Below are positions 25,678 to 56,025 of a DNA stretch of 64,000 nt, one piece after another. The first letter of the stretch is position 1. The number at the start of each line of letters is the position of its first letter. A model generated the notes under the pieces. It had not been told where the DNA came from, ran no database searches, and worked only from the letters and a program-made list of their open reading frames with translations. The DNA is taken from contig NZ_LGIC01000061.1 of the NCBI RefSeq assembly GCF_001294535.1, positions 248,001-312,000 on the forward strand, in the 5' to 3' direction. The stretch is from Cypionkella psychrotolerans. Its GTDB lineage: Bacteria > Pseudomonadota > Alphaproteobacteria > Rhodobacterales > Rhodobacteraceae. A program made the translations under genes and the position numbers.

Positions 25678-26285
25678 TGCGGAAGTTTTCGGGCAATCGG
25701 CTGCTGGTTGCGACGCATAATCGCGGCAAGCTGGAGGAAATCGCCAAGTTATTGGAAGGGTTTGGGATTTCGGTTATTTCGGCGGGCGATCTGGGCTTGC
25801 CAGAGCCGGTAGAGACCGAGGATAGCTTTGTCGGCAATGCCCGGATCAAGGCCCATGCGGCTGCGCAGGCCACCGGGCTGCCCGCGCTTTCCGATGATTC
25901 TGGCATCACGATTGAGGCTTTGGATGGGGCTCCGGGCGTCTACACGGCGGATTGGGCGGAAACGCCGACGGGCCGGGATTTTGTCATGGCGATGACGAAA
26001 ACCTGGGACAAACTGGAGGCGATTGCGGCGCCAGAACCTCGGCTGGCGCAGTTTCGCTGCACTTTGGTCTTGGCTTGGCCGGATGGCCATGATGAAGTGT
26101 TTGAAGGGATGATGGCGGGGCAGATTGTTTGGCCGATGCGCGGCGATCAAGGCCATGGCTATGATCCGATTTTCCAGCCTTTGGGCAGCGATCAGACCTT
26201 TGGTGAGATGGATCGCTGGCAGAAAAACCAGATCAGCCACCGTGCTGATGCGTTTCGTAAACTTGTAGAAGGATGTTTCACGTGA
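25677..26285 (+). CDS. rdgB: Non-canonical purine NTP pyrophosphatase RdgB/HAM1
   Basis: 202 aa. It shows LLVATHNRGKLEEI, ALSDDSGITIEALDGAPGVYTADWA and GYDPIFQP, all standard HAM1 motifs. It hydrolyses dITP/XTP to keep them out of DNA. ATG 25677 overlaps the rph stop; a GTG one codon earlier is possible. The last codons and the stop TGA lie inside a parS palindrome shared with the ridA start. Confidence 0.96.
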   Translation: MRKFSGNRLLVATHNRGKLEEIAKLLEGFGISVISAGDLGLPEPVETEDSFVGNARIKAHAAAQATGLPALSDDSGITIEALDGAPGVYTADWAETPTGRDFVMAMTKTWDKLEAIAAPEPRLAQFRCTLVLAWPDGHDEVFEGMMAGQIVWPMRGDQGHGYDPIFQPLGSDQTFGEMDRWQKNQISHRADAFRKLVEGCFT

Positions 26286-26656
26286 AACAAATCTCCACCG
26301 GATCGCCGTTTGAAACGACAATGGGCTATAGCCGCGCCATCGTCAAAGGCGGCTGGTGTTTCGTGTCGGGCGTCACGGGCTACGATTACGCGACGATGCA
26401 GATGCCTGACGGCGTCGCGGATCAGGCACGAAATTGTTTTGCCACCATCGCGGGGGTTTTGACCGAGGCGGGCTTCGAGATGGCTGATATTGTGCGGGTG
26501 CAGTATACCGTGGTTGCGCCGGAGTTGGTTGAGACGCTGGTGCCGGTGCTGGGTTCGACGTTGGGGCAGATCCGGCCCGCCGCGACGATGGTGATCGCCG
26601 GACTGATCCGCCCAGAGATGAAAGTTGAAATCGAAGTTACGGCATTTAAGGGCTAG
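26273..26656 (+). CDS. RidA/YjgF-family protein
   Basis: 127 aa. The Rid fold is evident from ISTGSPFETTMGYSRAIVKGGWCFVSG and the C-terminal LIRPEMKVEIEVTAF. Family members deaminate reactive enamine/imine intermediates. In this copy Arg of the canonical IRPAATMV region is present (GQIRPAATMV). The first codons (MFHVKQ) come from a parS site, and the start overlaps rdgB by 13 bp. Confidence 0.9.
   Translation: MFHVKQISTGSPFETTMGYSRAIVKGGWCFVSGVTGYDYATMQMPDGVADQARNCFATIAGVLTEAGFEMADIVRVQYTVVAPELVETLVPVLGSTLGQIRPAATMVIAGLIRPEMKVEIEVTAFKG
26274..26289. promoter_or_regulatory. parS site 1 (ParB-binding)
   Basis: Perfect 16-bp palindrome TGTTTCACGTGAAACA, the chromosomal parS consensus. It supplies the rdgB stop codon and codons 1-6 of the ridA-like gene. 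parA and parB lie 1.5-3.3 kb away. Confidence 0.93.
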
Positions 26657-27827: not shown

Positions 27828-28733
27828 CTAAAACTCCGCGTCGCGCGGGATCACCGACAGCACCCGGCACAGCAAATCAAGCTGATCGAGCGAGCGGTAG
27901 CTGATCGTCAGCTTGCCGCCCTCGCCGCCCGGAAGATGGTCGATTTGCACCGACATATGCAGATTGGCCGAAAGATCGGATTCCAACGCGCGCGTATCCG
28001 CATCTTTCTCACTGCGCTGCCGTAGGGAGCGCCTCTTGGCGGGGTCGATGGCAGACTTTCGCACCAGTTCCTCAGTATCGCGCACCGAAAGACCGCGTCC
28101 AACCACTTGCAGCGCCAGCTCCGTTGCATTGCCAGTGGTGATCAGCGCCCGGGCATGTCCGGCAGACAAAGTGCCGGATTTGACCATTTGTTGTACGTCT
28201 TCCGGCAGTGCCAGCAAGCGCAGCAAATTGGCGATATGACTGCGGCTGCGCGACAAGGCTTCGGCAATCTTTTCTTGGGTATGGCCGAACCTATCCATCA
28301 ACTGGCGATAGGCCAGCGCTTCTTCGATAGAGTTTAGCTCGGCGCGCTGGATGTTTTCAATAATCGCGATCTCAAGCACTTCCGAATCACTGAACTCGCG
28401 GACAATCACCGGCAGTTCATGAAGTTGCGCAATCTGCGCCGCCCGCCAACGCCGTTCGCCTGCGACGATTTCGTAAAGATCCTGACCGGGCTTTTTGCGC
28501 ACGATGAGGGGCTGAATGACACCCTTCTGACGCAGAGAATCCGCGAGATCCTTCAACGCTTCCGGCTGGAAATCGCGCCGCGGCTGATCGGGGTTCGGCA
28601 CAATCTTTTCGACAGGCAGCATCAATTCGGAGCGCCGGGTCTCGGATGCAGCTGACGGTGCCTCAAGATTCACATCTGCCATCAGCGCCGAAAGTCCGCG
28701 GCCAAGGCCGCGTCGATCAAACTTCTTTTCCAT
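27828..28733 (-). CDS. parB: Chromosome partitioning protein ParB
   Basis: 301 aa. The N-terminal RRGLGRGLSALM is typical. The CTPase/N-domain has PNPDQPRRDF and the hallmark GERRWRAAQIA. A helix-turn-helix region (MDRFGHTQEKIAEALSRSRSHIANLLRLL) and SGHARAL-type SAGHARALI follow, with a dimerisation tail. ParB loads on parS and spreads as a clamp to organise the origin. Its start overlaps the parA stop by a single base. Five parS sites are in this window. Confidence 0.97.
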   Translation of the reverse strand: MEKKFDRRGLGRGLSALMADVNLEAPSAASETRRSELMLPVEKIVPNPDQPRRDFQPEALKDLADSLRQKGVIQPLIVRKKPGQDLYEIVAGERRWRAAQIAQLHELPVIVREFSDSEVLEIAIIENIQRAELNSIEEALAYRQLMDRFGHTQEKIAEALSRSRSHIANLLRLLALPEDVQQMVKSGTLSAGHARALITTGNATELALQVVGRGLSVRDTEELVRKSAIDPAKRRSLRQRSEKDADTRALESDLSANLHMSVQIDHLPGGEGGKLTISYRSLDQLDLLCRVLSVIPRDAEF

Positions 28734-29560
28734 CAGACGGTCTCCTCTTTGAAACGATTGCGCACCGGATGCCGCAGCAAAATCTCGGTCGACAGAGCTC
28801 GGTAGGCTTCTGAGCCTTTCGACGCGCTGTCATAGCTTAGAACAGGCTGCGCATAAGACGGCGCTTCGCTGAGCCGCACATTGCGCGGAATCATGGTTTT
28901 GAACACCAAATCCCCCAAGGTCGTACGCGCATCATGTTCGACCTGCTGCGAAAGTCGGTTGCGGCCATCCACCATCGTCAGCACCACGCCTTCAATGCGA
29001 AGCCCCGGATTGGCGCTGCGCCGCACTTCGCGAATGGTCAACATCAGTTGCGACAAGCCCTCCAGCGCGAAAAACTCGGCCTGTAGCGGCACCAGCACGG
29101 CATGACTTGCCACCATCGCATTGATCGTCAGCAAACTCAGCGACGGCGGGCAGTCAATCAAAATAAAGTCAAGATCCAGCATTTCAACCCGCGGTTCGCG
29201 CAGTGAATCATGCAGCAAAAAGCTGCGCTTCTCATTAGAGACCAGTTGAATATCGGCGGAAGACAGATCAGCGCTGGAGGGGCAAAGCAACAAGCCCGCG
29301 AAGTCGGTGCCAACCACCGTCTCAACCAGCGGGGTCTCCTCCAACAGCAAATCATAGGTGGTCTTTTTGCGATCTGTCGGTGCGAAGCCCAGGCCGGTCG
29401 AGGCATTGCCCTGTGGATCCAGATCCACCAACAGCACCCGCGCGCCCTGCTCGACCAAAGCAGCCGCAAGGTTGATCGCGGTGGTTGTCTTGCCCACCCC
29501 GCCTTTTTGGTTGGCAATCGACAGAATATGCGGCCCATCCGCGCCAATAAGGTCATGCAC
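28733..29560 (-). CDS. parA: Chromosome partitioning ATPase ParA
   Basis: 275 aa. Deviant Walker A KGGVGKTT at residues 19-26, LVDLDPQGNASTGLG, and DCPPSLSLLTINAMV. The start is a GTG at 29560 with GAGGGG about 9 bp upstream, overlapping the end of rsmG by 8 bp; no ATG fits the conserved N-terminus as well. ParA patterns on the nucleoid and moves ParB-parS complexes to the cell poles. Confidence 0.97.
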   Translation of the reverse strand: MHDLIGADGPHILSIANQKGGVGKTTTAINLAAALVEQGARVLLVDLDPQGNASTGLGFAPTDRKKTTYDLLLEETPLVETVVGTDFAGLLLCPSSADLSSADIQLVSNEKRSFLLHDSLREPRVEMLDLDFILIDCPPSLSLLTINAMVASHAVLVPLQAEFFALEGLSQLMLTIREVRRSANPGLRIEGVVLTMVDGRNRLSQQVEHDARTTLGDLVFKTMIPRNVRLSEAPSYAQPVLSYDSASKGSEAYRALSTEILLRHPVRNRFKEETV

Positions 29561-30179
29561 GCTGAATGCCCCTCACTGCCAGAACAAGCGATTCAGGGTC
29601 GGTATGGCTTTGCATCGCATCACAGTTGAACCGCCACAGCTTCTGCGCATCCTCGATTTCGCGCGCCGCAGCGGCGCCCTTCGGAAAAATCGCCACGCCT
29701 TGCGGCTTCAAATGCCGATATGCGTAGCCACACAGAGTAGATAATGGCGCCAATGCCCGCGCAGTAAGGACATCAACATTCTGTGGCTCAAGATCTTCAA
29801 TACGCTGGGTTTTAACACTGACAGCGATATCCAAGAGACGTGAGGCTTCGGACAGAAACACCGATTTCCGACGATCTGCTTCCACCAGAATCATCCGCGT
29901 CTCAGGCTGCAATTCCTTCGCAAGAATGGCCAGCACGATGCCCGGAAACCCGCCGCCGCTGCCCAAATCGCACCAGAGGCCGACTTCAGCGGGTACTTGT
30001 CGAATAAGCTGTGCAGAATCAATGACATGCCTGTCCCAAATTTCAGAAATTCCCGATTTGGAGATGAGATTTATGGCTGGATTCCATTTTTCGACCAACG
30101 CGCAATAGGCAAAAAGCCTCTCCAGTGTTTCACGTGAAACATTCAACCAAGCAGGGACCTCAACCTCGTCACGGTTCAT
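29553..30179 (-). CDS. rsmG: 16S rRNA (guanine-527-N7) methyltransferase RsmG
   Basis: 208 aa. SAM-binding motif [16 protein letters not shown] and [13 protein letters not shown] are present, and N-terminal [12 protein letters not shown] is the family start region. Codons 13-18 (NVSRET) are encoded by a parS site. It overlaps mnmG by 4 bp and parA by 8 bp within the rho-mnmE-mnmG-rsmG-parA-parB block. Confidence 0.96.
30126..30141. promoter_or_regulatory. parS site 2
   Basis: Perfect TGTTTCACGTGAAACA inside the 5' part of rsmG, read there as V-S-R-E-T. Confidence 0.93.
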
Positions 30180-32056
30180 TGCGAGGCGACCTCTCGACGG
30201 GCCTTACGGATATGCGCCAAGATCAGCGTCAGCGCAGCCGGCGTCATTCCCTCAATCCGCGCCGCTTGCGCCAAATTGGCCGGTCGCACATGCGACAGCT
30301 TTGCGCCCAACTCTGTCGAGAGCCCCGGCAGGCCGGTAAACACAAAGCCGCCTGGAATTTCCGCGGATTCTTCGCGCTTCAAAGCCGCAATCTCATACCT
30401 TTGTCGCTCAACATACTGAGCATAAAGCGCATCCGTCGCCGTCTGTTGCTGAATCTCCGGGGTAAACTCGGCAAACTCGGGCACCAATACGGCAATTTGC
30501 GCGACCGTCACATCCGACAGTGCCATCAGCGCCTGCGCAGTGCGTCGTGTGCCGTCCTGACTAAGCGAAATCCCAACCCTGTTCAGTTCGGTCGGTGAGA
30601 ACGCTCTTTGTTGCAACACATCCGCCGCCGCCGCGAGACTGTCACGCTTGCGTAAAAATGCCGCTTTGCGATCATCCCGAACACAGCCTAAAGCAAGCCC
30701 TATCGGTGTCAGCCGCTGGTCCGCATTGTCCGCCCGCAACGTCAAACGATACTCTGCCCGCGAGGTAAACATACGGTAAGGCTCCGTCACGCCCCGCGTG
30801 GTCAAATCATCAACCATAACCCCGATATAGCTTTCAGCCCGGCCGAAATGCACCGGATCTTTTGCTTGCGCCAAAGCCGCCGCGTTCAAGCCAGCCAACA
30901 AGCCCTGCGCCGCCGCCTCCTCATATCCAGTGGTCCCATTGATTTGACCGGCCAGAAACAACCCCGGCAGTGCTTTCAGCTGCAGCGACAAGTCAAGCGC
31001 ACGGGGATCAAAGTAATCATATTCAATGGCATAGCCCGGCTGGATGATCCGCACATTCTCAAGCCCAAGGATAGAGCGGACATAGGCCTCTTGCACCTCT
31101 TGTGGCAAAGAGGTCGAAATTCCGTTCGGGTAGACAGTGCTATCGTCCAGTCCCTCAGGTTCCAAAAACACCTGATGTGAGGTTTTGTCGGCGAATCGCA
31201 CGATCTTATCCTCGATAGACGGACAATAGCGCGGCCCAATCCCTTCGATATGGCCGCCATACATCGCGGATCGACTGAGATTCTGACGCACAATCGTATG
31301 GGTTTTCTCATTGGTATGGGTGATGCCACAGGCAATCTGCCGCACCTGCGGCAGTTTGTTCAGGAAAGAAAACACCACCGGGTCTTCGTCGCCGGGCTGG
31401 ATTTCCAACACATCCCAGTTGATCGTGCCGCCATCCAGACGCGGCGGCGTGCCGGTTTTCAAGCGCCCGCGCGCCAGCCCCAACGCTGCCAATTGTTCGG
31501 CCAACAACACAGAGGGCCGATCACCGACCCGGCCACCAGGCCGCCGCTGATCGCCAACATGAATCACCCCATTCAGGAATGTACCAACGGTCAACACCAC
31601 GGCATCAGCCGATAAATCAACCAAATCCGCCAAGGTAACTCCGGTCACTCTGCCATTTTGCTGTTTCAGCGCAATGACTTCACCTTCCAGGATCGTCAGA
31701 TTTTCCTCAGCGCTCAACAAATCCAGAACAGCGGCCCGATACAGCTTTCTGTCGGCCTGCGCCCGTGGACCCTGCACCGCCGGACCTTTTCGTCGGTTCA
31801 GCATCCGATATTGAATCGCCGCACGATCAGCCGCCAGAGCCATAATACCATCCATCGCGTCGATCTCACGCACCAGATGGCCCTTGCCCAAGCCTCCGAT
31901 AGCCGGATTGCACGACATCACCCCAATGCCATCACGGCGCAACGAAATCAGCGCCGTCCGAGCGCCCATCCGTGCCGAAGCCGCCGCAGCTTCCGCGCCG
32001 GCATGGCCGCCGCCAATGACAATCACCTCAAAATGTTTCACGTGAAACAACCTCAT
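30176..32056 (-). CDS. mnmG: tRNA uridine-34 carboxymethylaminomethyl enzyme MnmG (GidA)
   Basis: 626 aa. FAD-binding [10 protein letters not shown] near residue 16, [30 protein letters not shown], and [19 protein letters not shown]. With MnmE it installs cmnm5 at U34 of certain tRNAs using FAD. Codons 3-8 (LFHVKH) come from a parS site. The start overlaps the mnmE stop by 4 bp. Confidence 0.98.
32034..32049. promoter_or_regulatory. parS site 3
   Basis: Perfect TGTTTCACGTGAAACA at codons 3-8 of mnmG, read as F-H-V-K-H. Confidence 0.93.
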
Positions 32057-33348
32057 TTCCCGATGCAGAAGCTGGAGAATATCTCATCGAGCAGATTCTC
32101 AACATCGATTCTTCCCACCATGATTTCCAAAGCCCGCATCGACGCGCGCAAATCCGCCGCAACCAGCTCTGGCAAACTCTGTGCTTGCCCCATTCTGCCC
32201 CGTGCCGATTCCAACCCAGACACCGCAACCTGCATCGCGATACGCTGCCGCTCGCGGATCAGCAACCCCGCCGATGCCGCACGCCCCGACAACCGTGCCG
32301 CTATCTCAGCTATAAGCCAGTCAATGCCGGCCCCCGTCTTGCCGGAAACCGCCCCTGAAGACGCCAATGCCGCGCCATTGCGAACATCCGCTTTCCCCAA
32401 CACCACAAGATCATCGACCTCCGGCAACAACATCAGCACCTCATCAGGGTCGGCTTGCAAGAAAATCCGCAAATCAGCCTGACGTGCGCGCTCCAACGCC
32501 CGCTCCACGCCAATCCGCTCAACCACATCCACCGAATCACGCAGACCCGCAGTATCCAGCAATGTCACCGACAGCCCGGCAATATCCATCCGAACCTCAA
32601 TCACATCCCGGGTTGTGCCAGCAACTTCCGAGGTAATCGCCGCCTCCCGCCCCGCCAACGCATTAAGCAACGTCGACTTACCGGCATTGGGCGCCCCGAC
32701 AATCGCCACTTCAAAGCCGTGCCTGATCCGCTCCGCAGCTCGCGCGCCATCCAACTCGCGGCGCAACTGGACCAACAGACCATCAATCAGCGTCTGAACC
32801 TCGGGGGTCACATCCAGCGGCACATCCTCATCAGCAAAATCAATCGTCGCCTCGATCAAAGCCGCCGCCCGTACAAGATCCAGCCGCCAAGTCTCCACCC
32901 GTCGCCCCAAAGCCCCGGACAACACCCGCAACGCCTGCTTGCGCTGCGCTTCGGTCTCCGCATCAATCAGATCGGCAAGCCCCTCAACCTGCGTCAGATC
33001 AAGCCGGCCATTCTCCAGTGCCCGGCGAGTAAACTCCCCCGCCTCAGCCATCCGCAAGCCCGTTATCGCCGCCAGCGCCTGCAACACCCGCGCCACCACA
33101 GCGGTACTGCCATGCAACTGCAACTCGGCGCTGGCTTCACCCGTAAAACTCGCCCCCGCCGCAAACAGCAGTACCAAGGCTTCGTCCAATACCTCGCCCT
33201 GCCAGATCAACCGCCGCAATCCTGCTTGCCGAACAGAAGGCAAATCACACAGCCCAGCCACCGCGTCATGCGCCAAGGGCCCGGAGATCCGGATCACCGC
33301 AACGCCCCCCTTACCCCGCGCAGAGGCGAGGGCGAAAATTGTGTCCAT
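32053..33348 (-). CDS. mnmE: tRNA modification GTPase MnmE
   Basis: 431 aa from ATG 33348 (MDTIFALAS, the usual N-terminus). The G domain has Walker [30 protein letters not shown], and a GKAD-type specificity element (LGKADV). The protein ends in CIGK, the zinc/potassium-dependent C-terminal CxGK motif of the family. Partner of MnmG. It lies 27 bp after rho in the same direction. Confidence 0.97.
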
Positions 33349-33375
33349 AGCCAAGCCTTTGATTAGAGACGCAAT

Positions 33376-34647
<1,272 letters not shown>

Positions 34648-34787: not shown

Positions 34788-35237
34788 TCAGAACTTCACG
34801 ATCACCGAGATCACGATAATCATCATAAGCAGCGTCGGCACCTCATTCATCATGCGGTACTGTCGGCCGGTGACGCTGTTACGCCCCGCGACAAAATCCT
34901 TCCGCCGCCGCCCCAGCCAGTGGTGAAATAGCGTCATGGCAATCACGCAAAACGCCTTAGTCCAAGGCCAAGCTGCGGTCCAATCCACAATCCCAGGCGT
35001 GAACACCAGTGCCAAACCAAACGCCCATGTCGCCACAGATGCCGGATTGATGATCGCCTTCAGCAACCGTCGCTCCATCAGCTGAAACATCACGTCTGTG
35101 GCAGATCCGGGTTCTACCTGCTCCACATGATATACAAACAGCCTTGGCAGGTAGAACAGGCCCGCCATCCAAGCGATCACCGAAATCACATGCAATGCCT
35201 TGATCCAAGGATAATACGTCGCCAGAAAGTCGCCCAC
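34788..35237 (-). CDS. hemJ: Protoporphyrinogen oxidase HemJ
   Basis: 149 aa with four predicted membrane helices. It starts with the conserved YYPWIKALHVISVIAWMAGLFYLPRLFVYH, which in short form is WIKALHVISVIAWM plus LPRLFVYH, including the histidines thought to bind haem. Later RLLKAIINPAS and YRMMNEVPTLLM match the family. It oxidises protoporphyrinogen IX in bacteria lacking HemG/HemY. It is the last gene before the proposed origin; in other Alphaproteobacteria hemE often occupies this position. Confidence 0.92.
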   Translation of the reverse strand: MGDFLATYYPWIKALHVISVIAWMAGLFYLPRLFVYHVEQVEPGSATDVMFQLMERRLLKAIINPASVATWAFGLALVFTPGIVDWTAAWPWTKAFCVIAMTLFHHWLGRRRKDFVAGRNSVTGRQYRMMNEVPTLLMMIIVISVIVKF

Positions 35238-35306
35238 AGGTTCACCTCACTTCTTAGCTTCTTCTTAAAGAATAGATTCTAGAAAGAAAGATGTTGTTGT
35301 AGGGGC

Positions 35307-35315
35307 CGTGGATAA
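35307..35315 (-). other. DnaA box (one mismatch)
   Basis: Reads TTATCCACG on the minus strand against consensus TTATCCACA. Confidence 0.5.
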
Positions 35316-35378
35316 CGGAATTTCTCGGGTTCTCCCGCCTTATATCCCCAAGGTCCGGGCTGTGCGTAACTATAGAAC

Positions 35379-35431
35379 GATTTTCGTGATTCACATTTAT
35401 ACGTTGTAAATCAATATTATACACGAAAATC
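35379..35431. repeat. Inverted repeat around an AT-rich core in the proposed origin
   Basis: Perfect 10-bp arms GATTTTCGTG (35379-35388) and CACGAAAATC (35422-35431) enclose 33 bp that are about four-fifths A/T. It could be the unwinding element or a protein-binding dyad. Confidence 0.6.
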
Positions 35432-35615
35432 ACGCGGCACATCTTGCTCCACAGCCTCTGGATATATCTCTCGCGCACAGTCCAGTCTTTACGCCATCCC
35501 CATGTGGGCAAACCCGCCGAGCCTCGCCTCTGCGCTTGACAAAACCCTCCCCATCCCGCCTTTTCGACGCTAAATCGGGTTTACCCCCAAATCCACCTGC
35601 CGGAACAAACCCAGC

Positions 35616-35624
35616 TTATCCACA
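35616..35624 (+). other. DnaA box (perfect)
   Basis: Exact TTATCCACA, 15 bp before the maf start codon. Confidence 0.7.
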
Positions 35625-35638
35625 AGGCCGCCCCCATC

Positions 35639-36235
35639 ATGCGCCCGCTGCTTTTAGCCTCTGCATCGCCGATCCGCTTGCAGCTTTTGCGCAACGCCGG
35701 GCTTGAGGTTACAGCGCAGCCTGCCCGCATCGACGAAGACGCCATCCGCCAAGCGCTTCAGGTCGATGCCGCCCCGCCCCGCGAGATTGCCGATGCGCTT
35801 GCCGAAATGAAAGCCCGCAAACTGGCCGAGAAAAACCCCGACGCGCTTGTGCTGGGCTGCGATCAGATACTCGCTTTCAAGGGTCGGGTTTTTGGCAAGC
35901 CCGAAACCCAGAATGAGGCCCACGCTCAACTGACCGAATTCCGCGGTCAAACCCACCAGTTGATCTCGGCCTTGGTGCTTTATGACGGTGGCAAGCCGAT
36001 TTGGCGGCATATGTCAGAGGCGAAACTGACGATGCGGCTCCTCTCCGAGGGCTATCTTGACGATTACATCAGCCGCAACTGGCACTCCTTGCGCGAATCC
36101 GTTGGTGGCTACAAACTCGAAGAAGAAGGCATACGGCTGTTTTCCACTATCGAGGGCGATTACTTCACCATTCTCGGCCTGCCCCTTCTTCCCTTGATCG
36201 GCTATTTAGGCACCAGAGGCTTCATCGCAGCATGA
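35639..36235 (+). CDS. maf: Maf-family nucleotide pyrophosphatase
   Basis: 198 aa. N-terminal [14 protein letters not shown], the central [12 protein letters not shown] and the [22 protein letters not shown] tail are Maf hallmarks. Family enzymes hydrolyse dTTP/UTP or m7GTP; which subtype applies is not clear. First of four genes (maf-aroE-coaE-dnaQ) with 4-8 bp overlaps. Confidence 0.94.
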
Positions 36236-37071
36236 CAGATTTGCCCCGAATCCCACTTGCCGGCGTCATCGGCCACCCGATTGCGCACAGCCGTTCGCCT
36301 GCGCTGCACGGCTTCTGGCTGAAGCGGTATGGCATTAAAGGCCACTATATCCCGATGGATGTGGCACCGCAGGATCTTCGGCAAGCGCTTGAAATCCTAC
36401 CGAAACTTGGCTTCGTGGGTGTTAATGTGACCATCCCCCATAAGGAAGCGATCCTGAAAATCGCCGATGTTGTGACGGACCGTGCCGCGCTTATCGGCGC
36501 CGCCAACACGCTGATTTTTCGCAAAGATGGCCGGATTCACGCCGATAACACCGATGGCGCTGGTTTTATCGCTAACCTACGGCAAAACGCGCCGCATTGG
36601 AATCCCACTGCTGGTCCCGCCGCTGTCTTTGGTGCCGGGGGCGCCGCCCGTGCAATAGTCGCCGCCTTGATCGAGGTCGGGGCGCCAGAGATTCGCATCG
36701 CCAACCGCACCCAGCCTCGGGCTCAGGCCCTCCGCGCAGATTTTGGCGCAAAGCTGCAGATTTACGATTGGGTGCAGGCCGCAAATATGCTGGAGGGTGC
36801 CGCCACCGTCATCAATACGACCTCGCTCGGCATGTCTGGCAAATCGGATTTCCGGGTGCCGCTGGATGGACTCGAACGCGACGCGCTTGTCACTGACTTA
36901 GTGTATAACCCATTGAAAACACACTTCCTTATCGAAGCTGAAGCCAGAGGCTGCACCGTGGTCGATGGCCTCGGCATGTTGCTTCACCAAGCCGCCCCCG
37001 GCTTTGAACGCTGGTTCGACCAACGGCCAGAAGTGGACGAAGCCACCCGCCAAGCCGTGCTATCGGCATGA
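36232..37071 (+). CDS. aroE: Shikimate dehydrogenase
   Basis: 279 aa. Substrate-binding [16 protein letters not shown] and [12 protein letters not shown], with the catalytic Lys in PHKE; NADP-binding [10 protein letters not shown] followed by IANRTQPRA. It reduces 3-dehydroshikimate to shikimate in aromatic amino-acid synthesis. It overlaps both neighbours by 4 bp. Confidence 0.97.
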
Positions 37072-37655
37072 CCTTTCGCCTCGGCCTCACCGGCTCCATC
37101 GGCATGGGCAAATCCACCACCGCTGCCATGTTCGCCGCCGCGGGGCTGCCGATCTGGGACGCTGACAGCGCCGTTCACCAACTCTACGCCCGCGACGGTC
37201 TTGCGGTCAGCCCAATCAGCGAAATCTGCCCCGAAGCCACCATGGATGGGAATGTTTCACGTGAAACATTGAAACGCGCGATTGCAGCCGATCCTGGCCT
37301 GCTCGCCAAACTCGAAGCCATCACCCACCCGCTCGTCGCCGCCGACCGCGCCGCTTTCCTCGCGCAGACCACCGCCGACATTGCCGTCCTCGACACCCCG
37401 CTGCTGTTCGAGACATCCAGCCAACCCGAATTCCACGCCACTCTCCTCGTCACCGCCCCCGCCGATCTGCAACGGCAACGCGTTTTGCAACGCCCCGGCA
37501 TGACCGAACAGCACTTCCAAACCCTGCTCAGCCGCCAAATGCCCGACGCCCAAAAACGCTCCCTCGCCACCCATATCGTTGAAACGCTGGACCTTTCCGC
37601 CACTGAAGCCTATGTCAAATCCCTGATCGCCCATATCCGAGCCCGCCATGCGTGA
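37068..37655 (+). CDS. coaE: Dephospho-CoA kinase
   Basis: 195 aa. P-loop GLTGSIGMGKSTTA at residue 6, DADSAVHQLY, and DTPLLFE. It performs the last step of CoA synthesis. Residues 62-67 (NVSRET) are encoded by a parS site in a region that varies among homologues. It overlaps dnaQ by 8 bp. Confidence 0.96.
   Translation: MTFRLGLTGSIGMGKSTTAAMFAAAGLPIWDADSAVHQLYARDGLAVSPISEICPEATMDGNVSRETLKRAIAADPGLLAKLEAITHPLVAADRAAFLAQTTADIAVLDTPLLFETSSQPEFHATLLVTAPADLQRQRVLQRPGMTEQHFQTLLSRQMPDAQKRSLATHIVETLDLSATEAYVKSLIAHIRARHA
37253..37268. promoter_or_regulatory. parS site 4
   Basis: Perfect TGTTTCACGTGAAACA inside coaE, read V-S-R-E-T. It is the only site found on the right of the proposed origin within 10 kb. 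Confidence 0.93.
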
Positions 37656-38343
37656 GATCGTCCTCGACACCGAAACCACTGGCTTTGAACCCTCCGAAGG
37701 CGATCGAATCGTCGAAATCGGCGCGGTCGAACTGTTCAACCACCTACCCACAGGCAAAACCTACCACCAATATATCAACCCCGAACGCCTGATGCCGAAA
37801 GCCGCTTTTGACGTCCACGGCCTCGGCGATGAGTTCCTGCGCGACAAACCCGTCTTCAAAGCCATCGCCCAAGCCTTCCTCGAGTTCATTGGCGAGGCCC
37901 AACTGATCATCCACAATGCTAGTTTTGACATGAAATTCCTCAACGCCGAATTAACATCCGTCAAACTGCCGACTCTGCCGATGACCCGCGCCACCGACAC
38001 GCTGATGATGGCCCGCCGCAAGTTTCCCGGTTCCCCCGCCACCCTAGACGCGCTCTGCCGCCGCTTTGGCGTCGATAATTCTGCCCGCGAAAAGCACGGC
38101 GCTCTGCTCGATTCCGAAATCCTGGCCGAGGTCTATCTCGAACTTGTCGGCGGTAGGCAACCGGATTTTGGGCTCAATCCTGCGACGCAAACCGCCTCTG
38201 GCCCCGCGAAAACCCTCTCAGATTGGCGTCCACGCCCGCGCCCAAACCCGCTACCGCCCCGTCTGACCGAGGCAGAATCCGCCGCACACACCGCCTTCGT
38301 CGAAAAAATGGGCGTGGTGGCCATCTGGAAAAAGCGGCTCTAA
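37648..38343 (+). CDS. dnaQ: DNA polymerase III epsilon subunit (proofreading exonuclease)
   Basis: 231 aa. DEDDh exonuclease motifs: EIVLDTETTGF (motif I), LIIHNASFDMKFLN (II), and EKHGALLDSEILAEVY (III, with the catalytic His). The C-terminal proline/arginine-rich tail would bind the alpha subunit. Last gene of the maf operon. Confidence 0.96.
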   Translation: MREIVLDTETTGFEPSEGDRIVEIGAVELFNHLPTGKTYHQYINPERLMPKAAFDVHGLGDEFLRDKPVFKAIAQAFLEFIGEAQLIIHNASFDMKFLNAELTSVKLPTLPMTRATDTLMMARRKFPGSPATLDALCRRFGVDNSAREKHGALLDSEILAEVYLELVGGRQPDFGLNPATQTASGPAKTLSDWRPRPRPNPLPPRLTEAESAAHTAFVEKMGVVAIWKKRL

Positions 38344-39473: not shown

Positions 39474-39950
39474 TCAGTTCGCCACCGGCGCAGGCTGCGC
39501 CCGCCGCGCAATTTCCTGCCGATACAAAGCCAAGAAATCCACCGTGTCGATGTTCAGCGGCGGGAAGCCGCCATCGCGCGTCACATCCGAGATAATCCGC
39601 CGCACAAACGGGAACAGCAGCCGCGGGCATTCGATCATCAGAAACGGATGCAGCTGCTCCTCCGGTACGCCCTCAACATGGAAGATCCCGCCGTAATCGA
39701 CCTCCAGCAGAAACAGCGTATCGCCGTTCACCTTGTTCTTCGAGGTCACCTTGAACTTCGTCACAATATCAAACTGATGATCCTGCGCGCGCTTGCGCGC
39801 GTCCAAACTGACCTGCACCTGAATATCCGGCTGCACTTCATTGGCCGTCAGCCCCTTCTGTGCCACCATGTTTTCAAACGACATATCCCGCACAAACTGC
39901 GCCAGAACCGACATCTTGATCTGCGGCGCGCCGCCATTTTCCTCGGCCAT
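39474..39950 (-). CDS. secB: Protein-export chaperone SecB
   Basis: 158 aa from MAEENGGAPQ, with AGGGAG upstream. Conserved parts are QFVRDMSFENMVAQKG, FLLEVDYGGIFHVEGVPEEQLHPF and IECPRLLFPFVRRIISDVTRDGGFPPL. It holds preproteins unfolded and hands them to SecA, whose zinc tail is intact at the left end of the window. Probably follows fxsA (54-bp gap). Confidence 0.97.
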   Translation of the reverse strand: MAEENGGAPQIKMSVLAQFVRDMSFENMVAQKGLTANEVQPDIQVQVSLDARKRAQDHQFDIVTKFKVTSKNKVNGDTLFLLEVDYGGIFHVEGVPEEQLHPFLMIECPRLLFPFVRRIISDVTRDGGFPPLNIDTVDFLALYRQEIARRAQPAPVAN

Positions 39951-40004
39951 AAGCCCCACTCCCTGAAAAATCCTGCATACCCCTAGCAGGTCATCTCAAA
40001 GGCC

Positions 40005-42876: not shown

Positions 42877-42917
42877 CGCCTCAAACTAAACGATTGATTT
42901 AACGTTATTTATGCAAA

Positions 42918-42934
42918 GGTCCCAAGGCGGGACC
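42918..42934. terminator. Short hairpin between convergent genes
   Basis: Six-bp stem GGTCCC / GGGACC with loop AAGGC; the minus-strand side is followed by TTT only. A weak shared terminator is likely. Confidence 0.45.
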
Positions 42935-42938
42935 ACTC

Positions 42939-44045
42939 CTACCGCGTGAAATCCGAAGCCACCGTCGCCACGGGCCGCAGCACGATCTGAGTCGCATTCT
43001 GCACCGTCAAAACCACCCCCGGCAGCAACCCGATCCGCGCCTGCCGATCCGCCTCGAAAGCATTGGAAACGTCGCTCAGTCGATCCAAAATCGCGATCAA
43101 AGCCGCCGAATCCCCCATCACGAAATGCCCGGCCCCCTTCGAGAATGCGCCGACATCCATGAACGTTACCTTCAAATCTGCCACCCGCGACACATCCTTT
43201 AGCGACCCCAACCGCTCATCCTGCCCAGTCAACAGCGCCGACAACCGCAGGTATTTATCGCGATCCGAGCCAAAAATCACAAACGGCTGCGGCAGCGCCC
43301 CCATCGAATGTGCGCTTCTTTTGAACACATCCACATCAATATCCGGCGAAATAAAGATCACCCCACCGATCAGCCCGAGCGTCTTCTTATCCCCCCGGAT
43401 CGCCGTCTGCCGCAGCGCCTCCATCGTCAACCCGGCGCCCATCGAATGTGCCACGATCAAAATCCGCTTCGCGCCCGCCGCCGCAACCTCATGCATCAAA
43501 GATTCCAAGCCATCCCGCGCAAACAGCGCAGAATCGCGGTCATAGGCATAACCCAGCGGCTCCGCAGCCGAGGGCCAAGCATAATGCACCACCGCGCCGG
43601 GCAGCTTCAGATCATGTGCAAACTGAGCGACGCGGTAGACCCCCTCCGAGAAATTGTTGTTATAGCCGTGCACGAAAATCACTGCTTCGCCGCCATTCGC
43701 GGCCAGTTGAGTTTTCAAATCTTTGCGGAACGGCACGTCGTCTTGATAGACGATCTCATCGGTGGTCAGGAAATGTTTTAAAGGGTTGGCCTTGCCGTGA
43801 CGGGGCGGCCAGTTGATCTCACCCAGCTTGCGGTCGGGCGGCACGGAAACGTCGTAGCGGGCGAAGTTGATCTGTTCTGATCGGTAAGTTCCGAACGAAC
43901 CGTCTTGCTCTTGCTTGCGGGTAGTGCCGATGAAGATCTTCTGGACCTGCCCCACCGAGGCCGCCTGCGGGTCAAGTGTGACATGCCCGCGTGGCGCGCA
44001 GGCCAGCAGGAAGCTTAGGGAAAGGATCAACAGAAATCGGGTCAT
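42939..44045 (-). CDS. Lipoprotein alpha/beta hydrolase (DUF900 type)
   Basis: 368 aa from MTRFLLILSLSFLLAC, a lipoprotein signal with lipobox LLAC. The fold has VIFVHGYNNNFSEGVYR (oxyanion loop), nucleophile elbow IVAHSMGAGLTMEALR, and a C-terminal acid/His region (GHFVMGDSAAL). It resembles esterase-like DUF900 proteins; substrate unknown. It stands alone, 272 bp from hslU. Confidence 0.88.
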   Translation of the reverse strand: MTRFLLILSLSFLLACAPRGHVTLDPQAASVGQVQKIFIGTTRKQEQDGSFGTYRSEQINFARYDVSVPPDRKLGEINWPPRHGKANPLKHFLTTDEIVYQDDVPFRKDLKTQLAANGGEAVIFVHGYNNNFSEGVYRVAQFAHDLKLPGAVVHYAWPSAAEPLGYAYDRDSALFARDGLESLMHEVAAAGAKRILIVAHSMGAGLTMEALRQTAIRGDKKTLGLIGGVIFISPDIDVDVFKRSAHSMGALPQPFVIFGSDRDKYLRLSALLTGQDERLGSLKDVSRVADLKVTFMDVGAFSKGAGHFVMGDSAALIAILDRLSDVSNAFEADRQARIGLLPGVVLTVQNATQIVLRPVATVASDFTR

Positions 44046-44124
44046 TGGCGGGCCTTTTTTGGCCAAAGTCTGGGGTTTCAAGGGGCGGGTCAAGTGACGT
44101 TATATTGCAGGCGCAGAAATGCCG

Positions 44125-44140
44125 CTGTCCACGCGTGGCG
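44125..44140 (+). repeat. 16-bp direct repeat, copy A
   Basis: CTGTCCACGCGTGGCG, containing the 10-bp palindrome CCACGCGTGG. An identical copy starts 176 bp downstream in the same gap. Confidence 0.7.
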
Positions 44141-44249
44141 TGGGCGTAGATCGCATGCTTTTCAAGGGATTAGGCTTTTGCATTCAGGGTTTGTTAACAC
44201 CACGGCATGTGAGTGTTTAGGCCAAGATGAAGCCGGGACAAGTATGAAA

Positions 44250-44279
44250 AAAGGGTTAAGGACATATCCCTAACCCTTT
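44250..44279 (-). terminator. Rho-independent terminator of hslVU
   Basis: Read on the minus strand: a long stem with arms AAAGGGTTA / TAACCCTTT (9 bp, plus inner pairs) followed immediately by TTTTTTC. It lies 38 bp after the hslU stop. This is the clearest intrinsic terminator in the window. Confidence 0.85.
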
Positions 44280-44300
44280 GAAATCATATAAATCGCAGCC

Positions 44301-44316
44301 CTGTCCACGCGTGGCG
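44301..44316 (+). repeat. 16-bp direct repeat, copy B
   Basis: Second exact copy of CTGTCCACGCGTGGCG, ending 1 bp before the hslU stop codon. Confidence 0.7.
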
Positions 44317-44317
44317 C

Positions 44318-45613
44318 CTACAAAACATAGCGCGAAATATCCGCCGACCGCGCCAGCGCGCCCAGATTTTTCTCGACGAAAGCGGCGTCCACCACGACCT
44401 CTTCCCCCGAGCGGTCCGGGGCGGTGAAAGACAGCTCCTCAAACACCCGCTCCATCACCGTATAAAGCCGGCGCGCCCCGATGTTCGCGATGGATTTGTT
44501 GACCTCTGCCGCGATCCGCGCCAGCGCCGCGATCCCGTCCGCCGTGAAGGAAACCGCGACATCCTCGGTCCCCATCAGCGCCGCATATTGTCGGGTCAGC
44601 GCATTGTCCGTTTCGGTCAGGATGCGGACAAAGTCTCCCTCCGTCAGCGGTGCCAGCTCCACCCGGATCGGCAAGCGACCCTGAAGTTCCGGCAGCAAAT
44701 CCGAAGGCTTCGCGACATGAAACGCTCCGGACGCGATGAACAGGATATGATCGGTTTTAACCGGGCCATATTTGGTGGAAACCGTCGTTCCCTCAATCAG
44801 CGGCAACAAATCCCGCTGCACCCCTTCCCGCGACACATCGGCTCCCCGCGCATCCGCCCGCGCGCAGATTTTGTCGATCTCATCCAGAAACACGATGCCA
44901 TTGTCCTGCACCGCCGCCAGTGCCACCGTCTTGACCGCCTCATCATCCAGCAGCTTGTCGGCCTCTTGCCCGATCAGCAAATCATAACTGTCGGCCACGG
45001 TGACCTTCTTGCGCGTGGTCCGCCCGCCGAACGCTTTGAACAAATCCTGCAGGCCTTGCATCTGCATTTCCATGCTCTGCCCGCCCATCATCGGCATCGC
45101 GGGGGCGGCGTCGGCGATTTCCAACTCGATCACCGTCGCATCCAATTCCCCGCGCCGCAGCTTGCCGCGAAACATCTCGCGGGTCTGCTCGCGCGCGTCT
45201 TTGCCCGCCAAAGCCTCAACCACCCGCTCCTCTGCGGCTTGCTTCGCCTTCGCCGCCACGTCTTCCCGCATCCGCGCGCGGGTGTCGATCATCGCGGCAT
45301 CGACCAGATCGCGGATGATGCTATCGACATCGCGACCGACATAGCCGACCTCGGTAAACTTGGTGGCCTCGACCTTCAGGAACGGCGCTTTCGCCAGTTT
45401 TGCCAGGCGGCGGGCGATCTCGGTTTTGCCCACCCCGGTTGGCCCGATCATCAGGATATTCTTCGGGTAAACCTCATCCCGAATATCGTCCGGCAGGTTG
45501 CGACAGCGCCAACGGTTGCGCAGGGCCACAGCAACGGCGCGTTTGGCGTCGCGTTGGCCGATGATGTGGCGGTCGAGTTCAGAGACGATCTCACGCGGGG
45601 TCAGGTTGGTCAT
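44318..45613 (-). CDS. hslU: ATP-dependent protease ATPase subunit HslU
   Basis: 431 aa from [13 protein letters not shown]+ motifs: Walker [16 protein letters not shown], Walker [12 protein letters not shown], and [21 protein letters not shown] sensor region; the terminal residues (ADISRYVL) that dock into HslV are present. It unfolds substrates for HslV. Start overlaps the hslV stop by 4 bp. Confidence 0.97.
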
Positions 45614-46167
45614 TTGGAAATCCGTTCCACGGTCAGGTTGCCGTTGGTGAACACGCAAATCTCGGCAGCAATCGCCATGGCGCGGCGGGCGACGTCTTCG
45701 GCGGGCAGATCGGTGGTCATCAGGCCCCGTGCTGCGGCGAGGGCGAAGTTGCCGCCCGATCCAATGGCGGCCACATCATGTTCGGGTTCCAGTACATCTC
45801 CGGCACCCGTGATCACGTAAAGATTGCGGCCATCGGTGACAATCAGCATGGCTTCCAGATTGCGCAGGTATTTGTCCATCCGCCAATCTTTCGCCAGATC
45901 GACGCAGGCGCGGGCGAGTTGACCAGGGGCAGCTTCCAGCTTTTTCTCTAGCCGTTCCAATAAGGTGAAGGCGTCAGCGGTCGATCCCGCAAAACCTGCA
46001 ACCACATCGTGGCCACCCGGCGAGAGGCGGCGGACCTTGCGGGCAGTGCCTTTGATCACGGTATTGCCTAAGGAAACTTGGCCATCGCCGGCCACCACAA
46101 CCTCGCCACCGCGACGCACGGCCAGAATGGTGGTGCCATGCCAACCGGGGAATTTGTCTTCGGACAT
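45610..46167 (-). CDS. hslV: ATP-dependent protease peptidase subunit HslV
   Basis: 185 aa from [11 protein letters not shown] with GGAG at a good distance; an ATG four codons earlier exists. The catalytic threonine should be Thr12 after removal of the short propeptide ([11 protein letters not shown]). Further motifs are GTARKVRRL and [17 protein letters not shown]. Forms the proteolytic core with HslU. A possible heat-shock promoter lies just upstream. Confidence 0.97.
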
Positions 46168-46190
46168 TTTGCGCTCCATCTGCTGGGCTT

Positions 46191-46220
46191 TATATGGAAG
46201 GCGGCTGCGCCGGGCGCAAG
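46191..46220 (-). promoter_or_regulatory. Possible RpoH-type heat-shock promoter for hslVU
   Basis: On the minus strand CTTGCG (46215-46220) is followed after 15 bp by TTCCATATA (46191-46199), resembling CTTGAA / CCCCATnTA. It lies 24 bp before the hslV start. Pattern match only. Confidence 0.4.
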
Positions 46221-46263
46221 CGGGCGGCTGGTGAGGCGGAGGGAAAACGCATAGTTTGCTGCC

Positions 46264-47121
46264 ATGGAACGGATTTTGAATTTCTATCTGGACGGTGACA
46301 AGCGCGCCCGCGCCGAGGCGGGGATCGGGATTTTTGGTGCTGTGGTGGGAGTGGTGCGGGCGGCGGGCTGGCAGGTTCGATACGCTGGGCACGCGGCGGA
46401 GGTTGCGGGTGAGGGCTATCACCTTGTTTACAATCGCGCGGTGGCGGGGTCGTTTTGTTTTAGCCTAAGACGCTGTTACCTTGAGAAATTCTACCGCATT
46501 GAGGCGACGAATGATCGCTGGGATTGGGCGGTGGCGGGGCTGCCGTTTCAGGGTGGAGAGCGGCAGGCGTGGTTTCAGCGCTATTGGCGCGCGCGGCTGT
46601 TTGGCGGGCTGACCGCCGCGCGGGGGGGCTATATTTTCATGCCGTTACAGGGGAAATTGTTGCAACGGCGGCATTTTCAGACCGCGTCTCCGGTTGAGAT
46701 GATCCAGGCGACTTTGGCGGCGGACCCAGAGCGGCGGATCGTGGCGACACTGCATCCGCGCGAGGTTTATTCTGAGGCGGAGCTGGATGCGCTGCGGGGG
46801 ATTGAGCGGTTTGAGCTGGTTCAGGGCTCGCTGCCGGTGCTGGCGGGCTGCGATTATGTGGTGACGGAGAATTCGTCGATGGCGCTGACCGGGTTCTTTG
46901 CCGACAAGCCAGCGGTGCTGTTTGCGCGGATTGATTTTCACCATATCGCGGCATCGGTGGGGCGGTTGGGGGTGGCGGGGGCGTTTGAGGCGGTGCATCG
47001 ACCACAGCCCTATGCGTCCTATCTGCATTGGTTTTTCAAGCGGCAGGCGCTGGCATCGTCGGGCGATGGCCATGAGGCGCAGATTGCGGATCGCTTGCGG
47101 GCGCACGGTTGGCCGCTGTGA
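46264..47121 (+). CDS. Protein of unknown function, possible glycosyltransferase
   Basis: 285 aa, divergent from hslV. I recognise no firm family. Segments [27 protein letters not shown] (in short [14 protein letters not shown]), [16 protein letters not shown] and [15 protein letters not shown] resemble the C-terminal half of capsule/Kdo-type transferases (KpsS/KpsC-like), where HP and ENSS elements line the nucleotide-sugar site. No signal peptide or membrane segment is evident. The gene is G-rich on its coding strand, like several others here. It ends 5 bp before a bidirectional hairpin shared with trxA. Confidence 0.6.
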
Positions 47122-54519: not shown

Positions 54520-55511
54520 TGGGCACCTATTCGGGCAAGGGCTTCGGGGGTGGGTTCGGGCAGCAGGCGGGCGCATATTTTGGCGAGCGGGGCGAGTTCT
54601 GGCTCGGAGAGGTTGCGCTGCAGGTGGTGCCAGACGCGGGGGATCAAGCGAACGTAGTTGGATTTGCCGCTCTGCAGGCAGAGGCGAGCGAAAATTCCGA
54701 TGATGCGCAGAGCGCGCTGCGCGCCAAGCGTGGCATAGGTGGGGCGGAAGCTGTCTGCCGTGGTGCCGGTTTGCAGACAGAAAGCGCGGATCATCGCGGC
54801 CTCCGTTTCACGTGAAACATCCCTTCGGGCGTCTTGCAGCAATGAGACGAGATCGTAGCCGGGCTGGCCAAGTTGGGCGAGTTGGAAATCCAGCACGCCG
54901 ACGCGGGCAAGGCCGGGCCGATCCGGCAGCCAAAGCAGGTTTTCGGCGTGATAATCGCGAAGGATAATCACGCGCGGGCCGTCGGCATGGCGCGATAGCG
55001 CATCGGTGAGGATGTTGCCGAAATCGGCAGGCTCGATGCGGTCGCCAGTGATTGCGAAACGATACCAATCGAGCGCAAAGCAGGCGGCCTCGGCCCAATC
55101 CTGCGCGGTCAGATTGGCGAGGTTGGCGGCGGGTGAATGGCGTTGCAGATGGGCAAGGACCTGCGTTGCCGCCGTATAGAGACTGTTTTCTCGGGACGGA
55201 GCCATTTTCAGAAGGGTGGCATAGATATTGTCACCCAAGTCCTCTAACAGTAGAAAGCCGTTTTCCAGATCCTGTGCGTAGCAACTTGGAGCAGAGAGGC
55301 CGATGGCCGAAAGATGCGCGGCAATTGCCAGAAATGTTGCCGGATCATCGCCCTTTCCCGGCGGCGCATCCATCAGGACGGCGGTTTTCGCGCCTTGCTC
55401 AAGCCGATCATAGCTGCGATCCGAAGCGTCTCCGGCGAGAAACCGACGATTGGCATTGCCCCAGCCGGCTTGGGTCAGAAATGCCTGCGATAAGGCGGCG
55501 CGGTCGTTCAT
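54501..55511 (-). CDS. amgK: Sugar kinase of the aminoglycoside-phosphotransferase fold, AmgK type
   Basis: 336 aa. Nucleotide-binding RRFLAGDASDRSYDRL, catalytic loop VIILRDYHAENLLWL, and Mg-binding VLDFQLAQLGQPGYDL. In Pseudomonas and Caulobacter such genes beside murU encode the anomeric MurNAc/GlcNAc kinase. Residues 231-236 (DVSRET) are encoded by a parS-like site. It overlaps murU by 19 bp and tsaE by 4 bp. Confidence 0.87.
   Translation of the reverse strand: MNDRAALSQAFLTQAGWGNANRRFLAGDASDRSYDRLEQGAKTAVLMDAPPGKGDDPATFLAIAAHLSAIGLSAPSCYAQDLENGFLLLEDLGDNIYATLLKMAPSRENSLYTAATQVLAHLQRHSPAANLANLTAQDWAEAACFALDWYRFAITGDRIEPADFGNILTDALSRHADGPRVIILRDYHAENLLWLPDRPGLARVGVLDFQLAQLGQPGYDLVSLLQDARRDVSRETEAAMIRAFCLQTGTTADSFRPTYATLGAQRALRIIGIFARLCLQSGKSNYVRLIPRVWHHLQRNLSEPELAPLAKICARLLPEPTPEALARIGAQCGHFR
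54804..54819. promoter_or_regulatory. parS site 5 (one outer mismatch)
   Basis: CGTTTCACGTGAAACA; the 14-bp core is perfect. It is inside amgK, read V-S-R-E-T, about 19 kb right of the proposed origin. Confidence 0.8.
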
Positions 55512-55981
55512 TGCGACCAACTTTGGGCGAACTCTGCCAGCAGATCGGGGTGGTCCGGCGCAGTCAGCGTGACATTCCGACCCTCTCCGCTGGTCGATAG
55601 CGCTATTCGAATAGCATGAGCGGGCGTCAAGCGACCCAAACGGTCCGGCCATTCAATCAGACAAATCGCTTGTGAAAGCGCGTCTTCCAGCCCCAGCTCG
55701 GCAACCTCATCGGGATGCGACAGACGGTAAAGATCGGCGTGCCAGATCTCGACATCGGCCTGATAGGTCTGCACGAGGGTGAAGGTGGGCGAGGGCACAT
55801 CCTCCATCCGACCCAAGCGGGCGCGGATCAGGGCGCGGGCGAGATGGCTTTTGCCGGCACCAATCGGACCTTCCAGCAACACAGAATCGCCCGCGCTTAG
55901 CCGCGATGCCAGCCAGCGGCCAAGATCGGCGGTGTCGTCCTCAGAGGGCAAAAAGGCGGTAACGGCATGCGGCTTTGTCAT
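55508..55981 (-). CDS. tsaE: tRNA threonylcarbamoyladenosine ATPase TsaE
   Basis: 157 aa. P-loop EGPIGAGKSHLARALI, SPTFTLVQTY, HADLYRL and ECWPDRLG-like LIEWPDRLGRL match the family. It supports t6A modification of tRNAs with TsaB/TsaD. The operon runs tsaE-amgK-murU-addB-addA with overlapping ends. Confidence 0.95.
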   Translation of the reverse strand: MTKPHAVTAFLPSEDDTADLGRWLASRLSAGDSVLLEGPIGAGKSHLARALIRARLGRMEDVPSPTFTLVQTYQADVEIWHADLYRLSHPDEVAELGLEDALSQAICLIEWPDRLGRLTPAHAIRIALSTSGEGRNVTLTAPDHPDLLAEFAQSWSQ

Positions 55982-56025
55982 GCGCCAAGTCTACCCTCCC
56001 CACCCGCCGCTGCAAGTCGCGAAGT

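Follow-up and report, generated by a model that had tools for sequence, protein, structure and literature searches.

The region considered here is a window of 64,000 nucleotides from the draft genome of Cypionkella psychrotolerans, corresponding to positions 248001-312000 of a contig of 360,444 bases (C61) in an assembly of 5.08 Mb and 93 contigs. In this window, at about 283.4 kb of the contig, a 401-bp gap (35238-35638) separates the divergent genes hemJ and maf, its edges being exactly set by the start of hemJ on the minus strand at 35237 and the start of maf on the plus strand at 35639. An initial annotation of the window had proposed the gap as the chromosomal replication origin (oriC), describing it as the longest gene-free interval, with genes diverging on both sides and an AT-rich core. 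Each of these descriptions holds on re-examination: with an ORF filter the next longest gap measures 373 bp (55653-56025), hemJ and maf do point away from each other, the gap has a GC content of 0.50 and the window one of 0.604, and the core, at about 35380-35426, contains an IHF-like site with one mismatch. The genes and partition sites around the gap are as follows.

26274..26289, no strand: parS, perfect 16-mer
27828..28733, minus strand: parB (TIGR00180, above cut-off)
28733..29560, minus strand: parA-like ATPase (top NCBIfam match, under its cut-off)
29553..30179, minus strand: rsmG (NCBIfam)
30126..30141, no strand: parS, perfect 16-mer
30176..32056, minus strand: mnmG (NCBIfam)
32034..32049, no strand: parS, perfect 16-mer
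32053..33354, minus strand: mnmE (NCBIfam)
33376..34647, minus strand: rho (NCBIfam)
34788..35237, minus strand: hemJ (TIGR00701, above cut-off)
35238..35638, no strand: predicted oriC between hemJ and maf (divergent gap, DnaA boxes, conservation)
35639..36235, plus strand: maf (TIGR00172, above cut-off)
36232..37071, plus strand: aroE (NCBIfam)
37068..37655, plus strand: coaE (NCBIfam)
37253..37268, no strand: parS, perfect 16-mer
37648..38343, plus strand: dnaQ
39474..39959, minus strand: secB
54804..54819, no strand: parS, 15 of 16 positions, 14-mer core perfect

Alphaproteobacterial origins often lie beside hem genes and near parAB and gidAB, as the initial annotation points out; here hemJ is the immediate flank, and mnmG, rsmG, the parA-like gene and parB lie on the same side. 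The dnaA gene lies on a separate contig (C86) and hemE on a third (C90). Three further short matches to the DnaA family (C88:169798, C37:275 and C68:18539) have identical scores and are perhaps copies of a mobile-element ATPase. A genome-wide search for the 14-mer core of parS, allowing one mismatch, recovered five copies, each of them perfect; they all lie on C61, at 274.3, 278.1, 280.0, 285.3 and 302.8 kb; the gap at 283.4 kb lies among them, and each is within 20 kb of it. The presence of parAB and parS beside the gap is among the properties by which an oriC is recognised in the Rhodobacterales. In relatives chosen from the loci at hand, the perfect parS cores listed were all less than 20 kb from hemJ, in three of three and 16 of 16 further genomes (distances taken by hand, contigs being assumed the same where coordinates agree).

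DnaA boxes and other elements of the gap

The initial annotation had reported perfect, near-perfect and several two-mismatch DnaA boxes in the gap, and our count at up to two mismatches gives 11, namely one perfect box, four with one mismatch and six with two. Five boxes have at most one mismatch, a number that was never reached when the interval was shuffled 2000 times with its dinucleotides preserved (mean 0.25). Over the whole window, boxes of this quality occur at chance level (20 against 18.5 expected), and hence it is their clustering in the gap that constitutes the signal. In the 712 kb (14%) of the draft that was scanned, the gap is the only cluster of at least three such boxes, other stretches of 401 bp holding two at most; perfect boxes number 37 across the genome, one of them inside the gap. 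The elements of the gap, with the frequency of each aligned box slot among the 101 related intervals described below, are:

35254..35289, no strand: AT-rich stretch adjoining hemJ, candidate unwinding element; overlaps TTAG-N7-TTAA (35254-35268) and GANTC (35275)
35290..35306, plus strand: conserved block GATGTTGTTGTAGGGGC, following the AT-rich stretch and preceding the first DnaA box
35307..35315, minus strand: DnaA box TTATCCACG, one mismatch; slot at up to one mismatch in 39/101
35361..35369, minus strand: DnaA box TTACGCACA, one mismatch; slot at up to one mismatch in 35/101
35387..35395, plus strand: DnaA box TGATTCACA, one mismatch; outside the 14 aligned slots listed
35409..35421, plus strand: IHF-like site AATCAATATTATA, one mismatch to WATCAANNNNTTR; within the AT-rich core
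35417..35425, plus strand: DnaA box TTATACACG, one mismatch; outside the 14 aligned slots listed
35616..35624, plus strand: DnaA box TTATCCACA, perfect; the most often matched slot, at up to one mismatch in 47/101

Relatives were collected through HemJ. A family search of 149 genomes gave some match in 127 and none in 22, several weak matches being probably not HemJ, and the 110 loci fetched comprise, besides our own, 29 relatives from the family search and 80 of 237 named loci, the best-matching ones in each case, some genomes perhaps being present in both sets; the nearest named relatives belong to Cypionkella, with HemJ identities of 89 and 85%. In 106 of these 110 loci, our own included, maf is divergent to hemJ, with 346-503 bp between them (median 411), and in the remaining four no maf is found on the piece, the contig ending within about 210 bases of hemJ on the side where maf is expected. 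A conserved length of the gap and conserved neighbouring genes, seen here among the best HemJ matches, are likewise a mark of the Rhodobacterales oriC. Inside the genus, the DNA of the gap found a match in 14 of 15 genomes, our own counted, with the four weakest matches confined to 35258-35321.

De-duplication left 101 intervals, of which 100 contain DnaA boxes with up to one mismatch; the average is 3.76 per interval, and 0.31 in shuffles. Their density is 9.15 per kb in the gaps, whereas the flanks (1.30 Mb, from loci longer than 8 kb) have 0.257 per kb, a 35-fold difference. The boxes recur across the 101 gaps in aligned slots, 14 of which were listed; one at 35342 is occupied at up to one mismatch in 39 of the 101 intervals. 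Certain slots have decayed in our own gap, for instance the one abutting maf, which in the relatives is filled at that stringency in 33 of 101. In the family consensus two tandem boxes abut the start codon of maf (window 35616-35638), and it is the second of these that is decayed here.

On the hemJ side, the family consensus runs from an AT-rich stretch through GATGATGATGTTGTAGGGCC to a reversed DnaA box. The block pattern was found in 46 of the 101 intervals (mononucleotide shuffles give 1.6 of 101), and in all 46 the 25 bp preceding it are richer in AT (median 0.84) than the gap to which they belong; at a fixed distance beyond the block, 26 of these intervals have a DnaA box with up to two mismatches and 20 have none. 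At the level of sequence, a candidate AT-rich unwinding element stands beside a DnaA box. As a genome-wide mark of origins, the short block pattern was rejected for its lack of specificity, with 72 matches at up to two mismatches. The site at 35409..35421 is called IHF-like by comparison to WATCAANNNNTTR, which we take to be the IHF consensus; its columns TATCAA..TTA are conserved in the family alignment, and IHF-like sites with up to one mismatch are present in 75 of the 101 gaps, with an average of 1.06 per gap where shuffles have 0.51.

The sites for CcrM and CtrA fared less well. Both GANTC sequences named in the initial annotation are present, at 35275 and 35388, but as support for an origin they fail, the motif being rarer in the 101 related intervals than in shuffles (1.02 vs 1.76 per interval), and it was discarded as an origin mark. 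Similarly, the TTAG-N7-TTAA near-site for CtrA does exist at 35254-35268, but it lends little weight: the perfect consensus TTAA-N7-TTAA occurs in 17 of 101 intervals (0.34 vs 0.03 per interval in shuffles, palindromes counted twice), with no copy in our own gap, and as a mark of origins it is weak on account of this scarcity. At one mismatch the CtrA site is found 1.05 times per gap against 0.50 in shuffles. In Dinoroseobacter shibae, of the same order, ctrA can be deleted, according to the part of that study drawn on here (PMC4046655). Given the depletion of GANTC, control of the gap by CcrM is not supported by the motif content; with a perfect CtrA site that is not general and a ctrA gene that is dispensable in D. 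shibae, control by CtrA is at best a possibility.

Strand asymmetry in relatives and in Cypionkella

GC skew was sampled in four of the eight genomes in which dnaA had been located (G101, QY30 (G163), G123 and G093), using 20 stretches of 20 kb per genome spaced 0.04-0.32 Mb apart. The score of the hemJ-maf position was reached by 4, 1, 0 and 4 of 2000 permutations respectively, and for third-position skew by 0, 77, 0 and 1 of 2000. The best-fitting origin range contained the gap in two of eight cases and lay about 7 to 207 kb away from it in the other six. At this coarse resolution, the sampled skew of the four relatives fits an origin near hemJ-maf. Of the 80 named loci, 62 had enough flanking sequence for a local comparison: the hemJ side has negative skew in 57 and the maf side lies above the hemJ side in 50, as expected, while the maf side, taken over 9 kb, is positive, also the expected sign, in just 21 of the 62.

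These genomes also bear on the proposition that the origin lies beside dnaA, as it does in many bacteria. In QY30, G123 and G093 no more than 0.1 Mb lies between dnaA and the gap, and the sampled skew is unable to tell the two apart; third-position skew is even slightly higher at dnaA in QY30 (0.024 vs 0.018) and G123 (0.099 vs 0.094), and in G093 the two positions tie. G101 is the single genome of the four that separates them, dnaA being 0.5 Mb off, and there the skew prefers hemJ-maf over dnaA (0.022 vs 0.007; 0.041 vs 0.032). In our own genome, the approximately 7.5 kb around dnaA on C86 contain a single DnaA box with up to one mismatch, and C86 is devoid of parS cores. With these observations against it, we regard an origin at dnaA as barely credible.

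On the organism's own contigs the picture is different. Over the 352 kb of C61 that were read, in a genome divided among 93 contigs, GC skew has neither a switch nor a minimum at the gap. The gap instead sits inside a C-rich domain at about 277-293 kb of C61 (window 29-46 kb), in which genes of either strand are C-rich on the plus strand, with skew at 4-fold sites from -0.06 to -0.60; the 60 kb flanking the gap on each side give -0.027 and -0.030. Farther out, the sign is the reverse of that around a usual origin at 108-213 kb (positive) and 328-358 kb (negative), and 288-328 kb is weakly positive, the expected sign. The 4-fold skew is strong and alike on both gene strands, forming alternating domains of 10-100 kb on C61 (8-360 kb), and is mostly negative on C86 (1-360 kb). 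The correlation between the two gene strands in 10-kb blocks is 0.82 for C61, 0.71 for C86 and 0.49 for Cypionkella aquatica; among the sampled relatives it is 0.58 in G123, 0.55 in G101, 0.14 in G093 and -0.05 in QY30.

Cypionkella aquatica behaves mostly like our own contig beside its gap. Over 114 orthologs the coding-strand skew of the two species is correlated at r = 0.84, with 60% identity at 4-fold sites, and at 70-260 kb from the gap (190 kb read) C. aquatica is positive where a usual origin gives negative values. The block map of the two species reveals an inversion: 236-319 kb of C61 correspond to 601-525 kb of C. aquatica in reverse (45 orthologs), and the flanking 206-223 and 321-351 kb run in the same direction in both. 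The inverted segment, of about 83 kb, contains the gap nearly at its centre, the two ends lying 47 and 36 kb away. Bacterial genomes commonly show inversions centred on the origin, and we take this as mild support for oriC. An inversion that contains the origin leaves the leading strand unchanged, and hence the skew of our own contig is not explained by it; the notion that this skew had been carried over to the other replichore was dropped on the same ground, since the inversion seen in the block map keeps the leading or lagging state.

The absence of a skew switch at the gap is what might be expected if the gap were a divergent promoter region alone, with hemJ and maf regulated by DnaA and the origin placed elsewhere, and the divergent arrangement and the box slot abutting the maf start (filled at up to one mismatch in 33/101) agree with such a role. 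Against this stand the number and density of the boxes, the conserved length of the gap, the nearby parS sites of the 20 genomes searched and the skew of the sampled relatives, which together make a promoter without origin function very unlikely.

The skew switch nearest to the gap lies at window 45.0-46.7 kb. Between hslU/hslV and the ORF at 46264 (window 45000-46700), the 4-fold skew passes from -0.19 to +0.58 in adjacent genes. It could be supposed that in this lineage initiation has moved by about 10 kb to this border of hslV and the ORF, where the step is sharp and recurs in C. aquatica. Yet the stretch from 42917 to 47117 is free of DnaA boxes with up to one mismatch, and further sign changes along the contig mean that the switch is not unique; we consider such a relocation highly improbable.

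Own-contig GC skew was accordingly rejected as a locator of the origin, being a mosaic and partly of opposite sign. KOPS-type octamers GGGNAGGG, counted over 88-360 kb of C61, were too few to serve this purpose; they number 10 on the plus and 18 on the minus strand left of the gap, leaning the expected way, and seven on each strand to the right. The search for a dif motif gave no match at up to three mismatches, and that for 16S rRNA, sought for its direction of transcription, gave none in the draft (the control was positive in 9 of 14). Gene strand and co-oriented runs, examined as a test of polarity, showed no clear polarity. The skew in Cypionkella may be reversed or mosaic, or the forks may behave otherwise than usual. 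The more specific reading, that both species have a C-rich leading strand (or a fork direction near the origin unlike that implied by the box cluster) together with a both-strand mosaic, appears to us unlikely.

A probable Rhodobacterales origin and its proposed mode of action

The cluster of DnaA boxes, the conserved length and flanks of the gap, the parS sites around it and the change of skew near it in the sampled relatives make oriC the best reading of the hemJ-maf gap, and the proposal of the initial annotation is supported by them; judged from sequence, the gap is very likely the chromosomal origin. We picture it as probably an ordinary Rhodobacterales oriC beside a reversed or mosaic skew.

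Several published origins offer comparisons, made here with the portions of the cited papers at hand. In the Rhodobacteraceae, oriC was predicted with Ori-Finder in 101 closed genomes, on criteria that include DnaA boxes, skew and parAB (PMC6699656). As far as those portions go, our gap resembles these origins in its DnaA boxes, local GC minimum and proximity to parAB, and differs from them in that, over the stretch of the contig that was read, it is not close to the minimum of GC disparity. Partition genes have been recommended as an anchor for the origin (parAB; PMC8116508), and the R. sphaeroides origin was located through skew and partition loci (PMC6315104), again going by excerpts of these papers. 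The gap is a further instance of the known Rhodobacteraceae oriC type; hemJ and maf as flanks of an origin are not named in the consulted portions of PMC6699656 or of the other origin papers cited, the searches having been aimed at other questions. The mapped origin of Caulobacter (Cori) is flanked by hemE and COG1806 and has five CtrA sites, as given in the sections used of PMC1914354. From the same sections, our gap is like Cori and the Rickettsia origin in its length of about 400 bp, its higher AT content than the genome, its DnaA boxes and its IHF-like site, and unlike Cori in its hemJ and maf flanks, hemE being on C90, and in having no perfect CtrA site where Cori has five.

The order of elements on the hemJ side also recalls the DnaA-trio module, in which a DnaA box, a GC-rich spacer, a triplet block and an AT-rich stretch succeed each other (PMC8287927, in the part considered). 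The rule given there asks for at least three 3'-NAN-5' triplets no farther than 16 bp from a DnaA box. Read by eye, such triplets may be present in our window, with a 13-bp spacer; they are mostly not of the canonical 3'-GAT-5' type of the module, the match is loose, and the likeness offers no more than a lead.

What is observed is that the sites are present, clustered and conserved, and from this we infer every step by which the origin would act. 1) DnaA-ATP would load onto the boxes spread along the gap. 2) The middle of the gap would be bent by IHF or a similar protein. 3) A DnaA filament might then open the AT-rich stretch on the hemJ side, which adjoins the conserved GATG...GTAGG block with the first DnaA box beyond it. 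4) The helicase would be loaded at the opened stretch. 5) Two forks would leave the gap, one through hemJ, rho, mnmEG, rsmG and parAB, the other through maf, aroE, coaE and dnaQ. 6) The new origin would subsequently be moved by ParB bound to the five parS sites.

If the skew of Cypionkella is truly reversed, origin finders that depend on skew would put the origin of its members in the wrong place, and the genus would then furnish a testable exception to the common rule of strand asymmetry. For the draft genome itself, a probable origin, and hence a replication map, is now fixed. For the Rhodobacterales more widely, the analysis provides a family-wide picture of the origin, with a gap of near-constant length, recurrent slots for DnaA boxes, a conserved block on the hemJ side and a bracket of parS sites.
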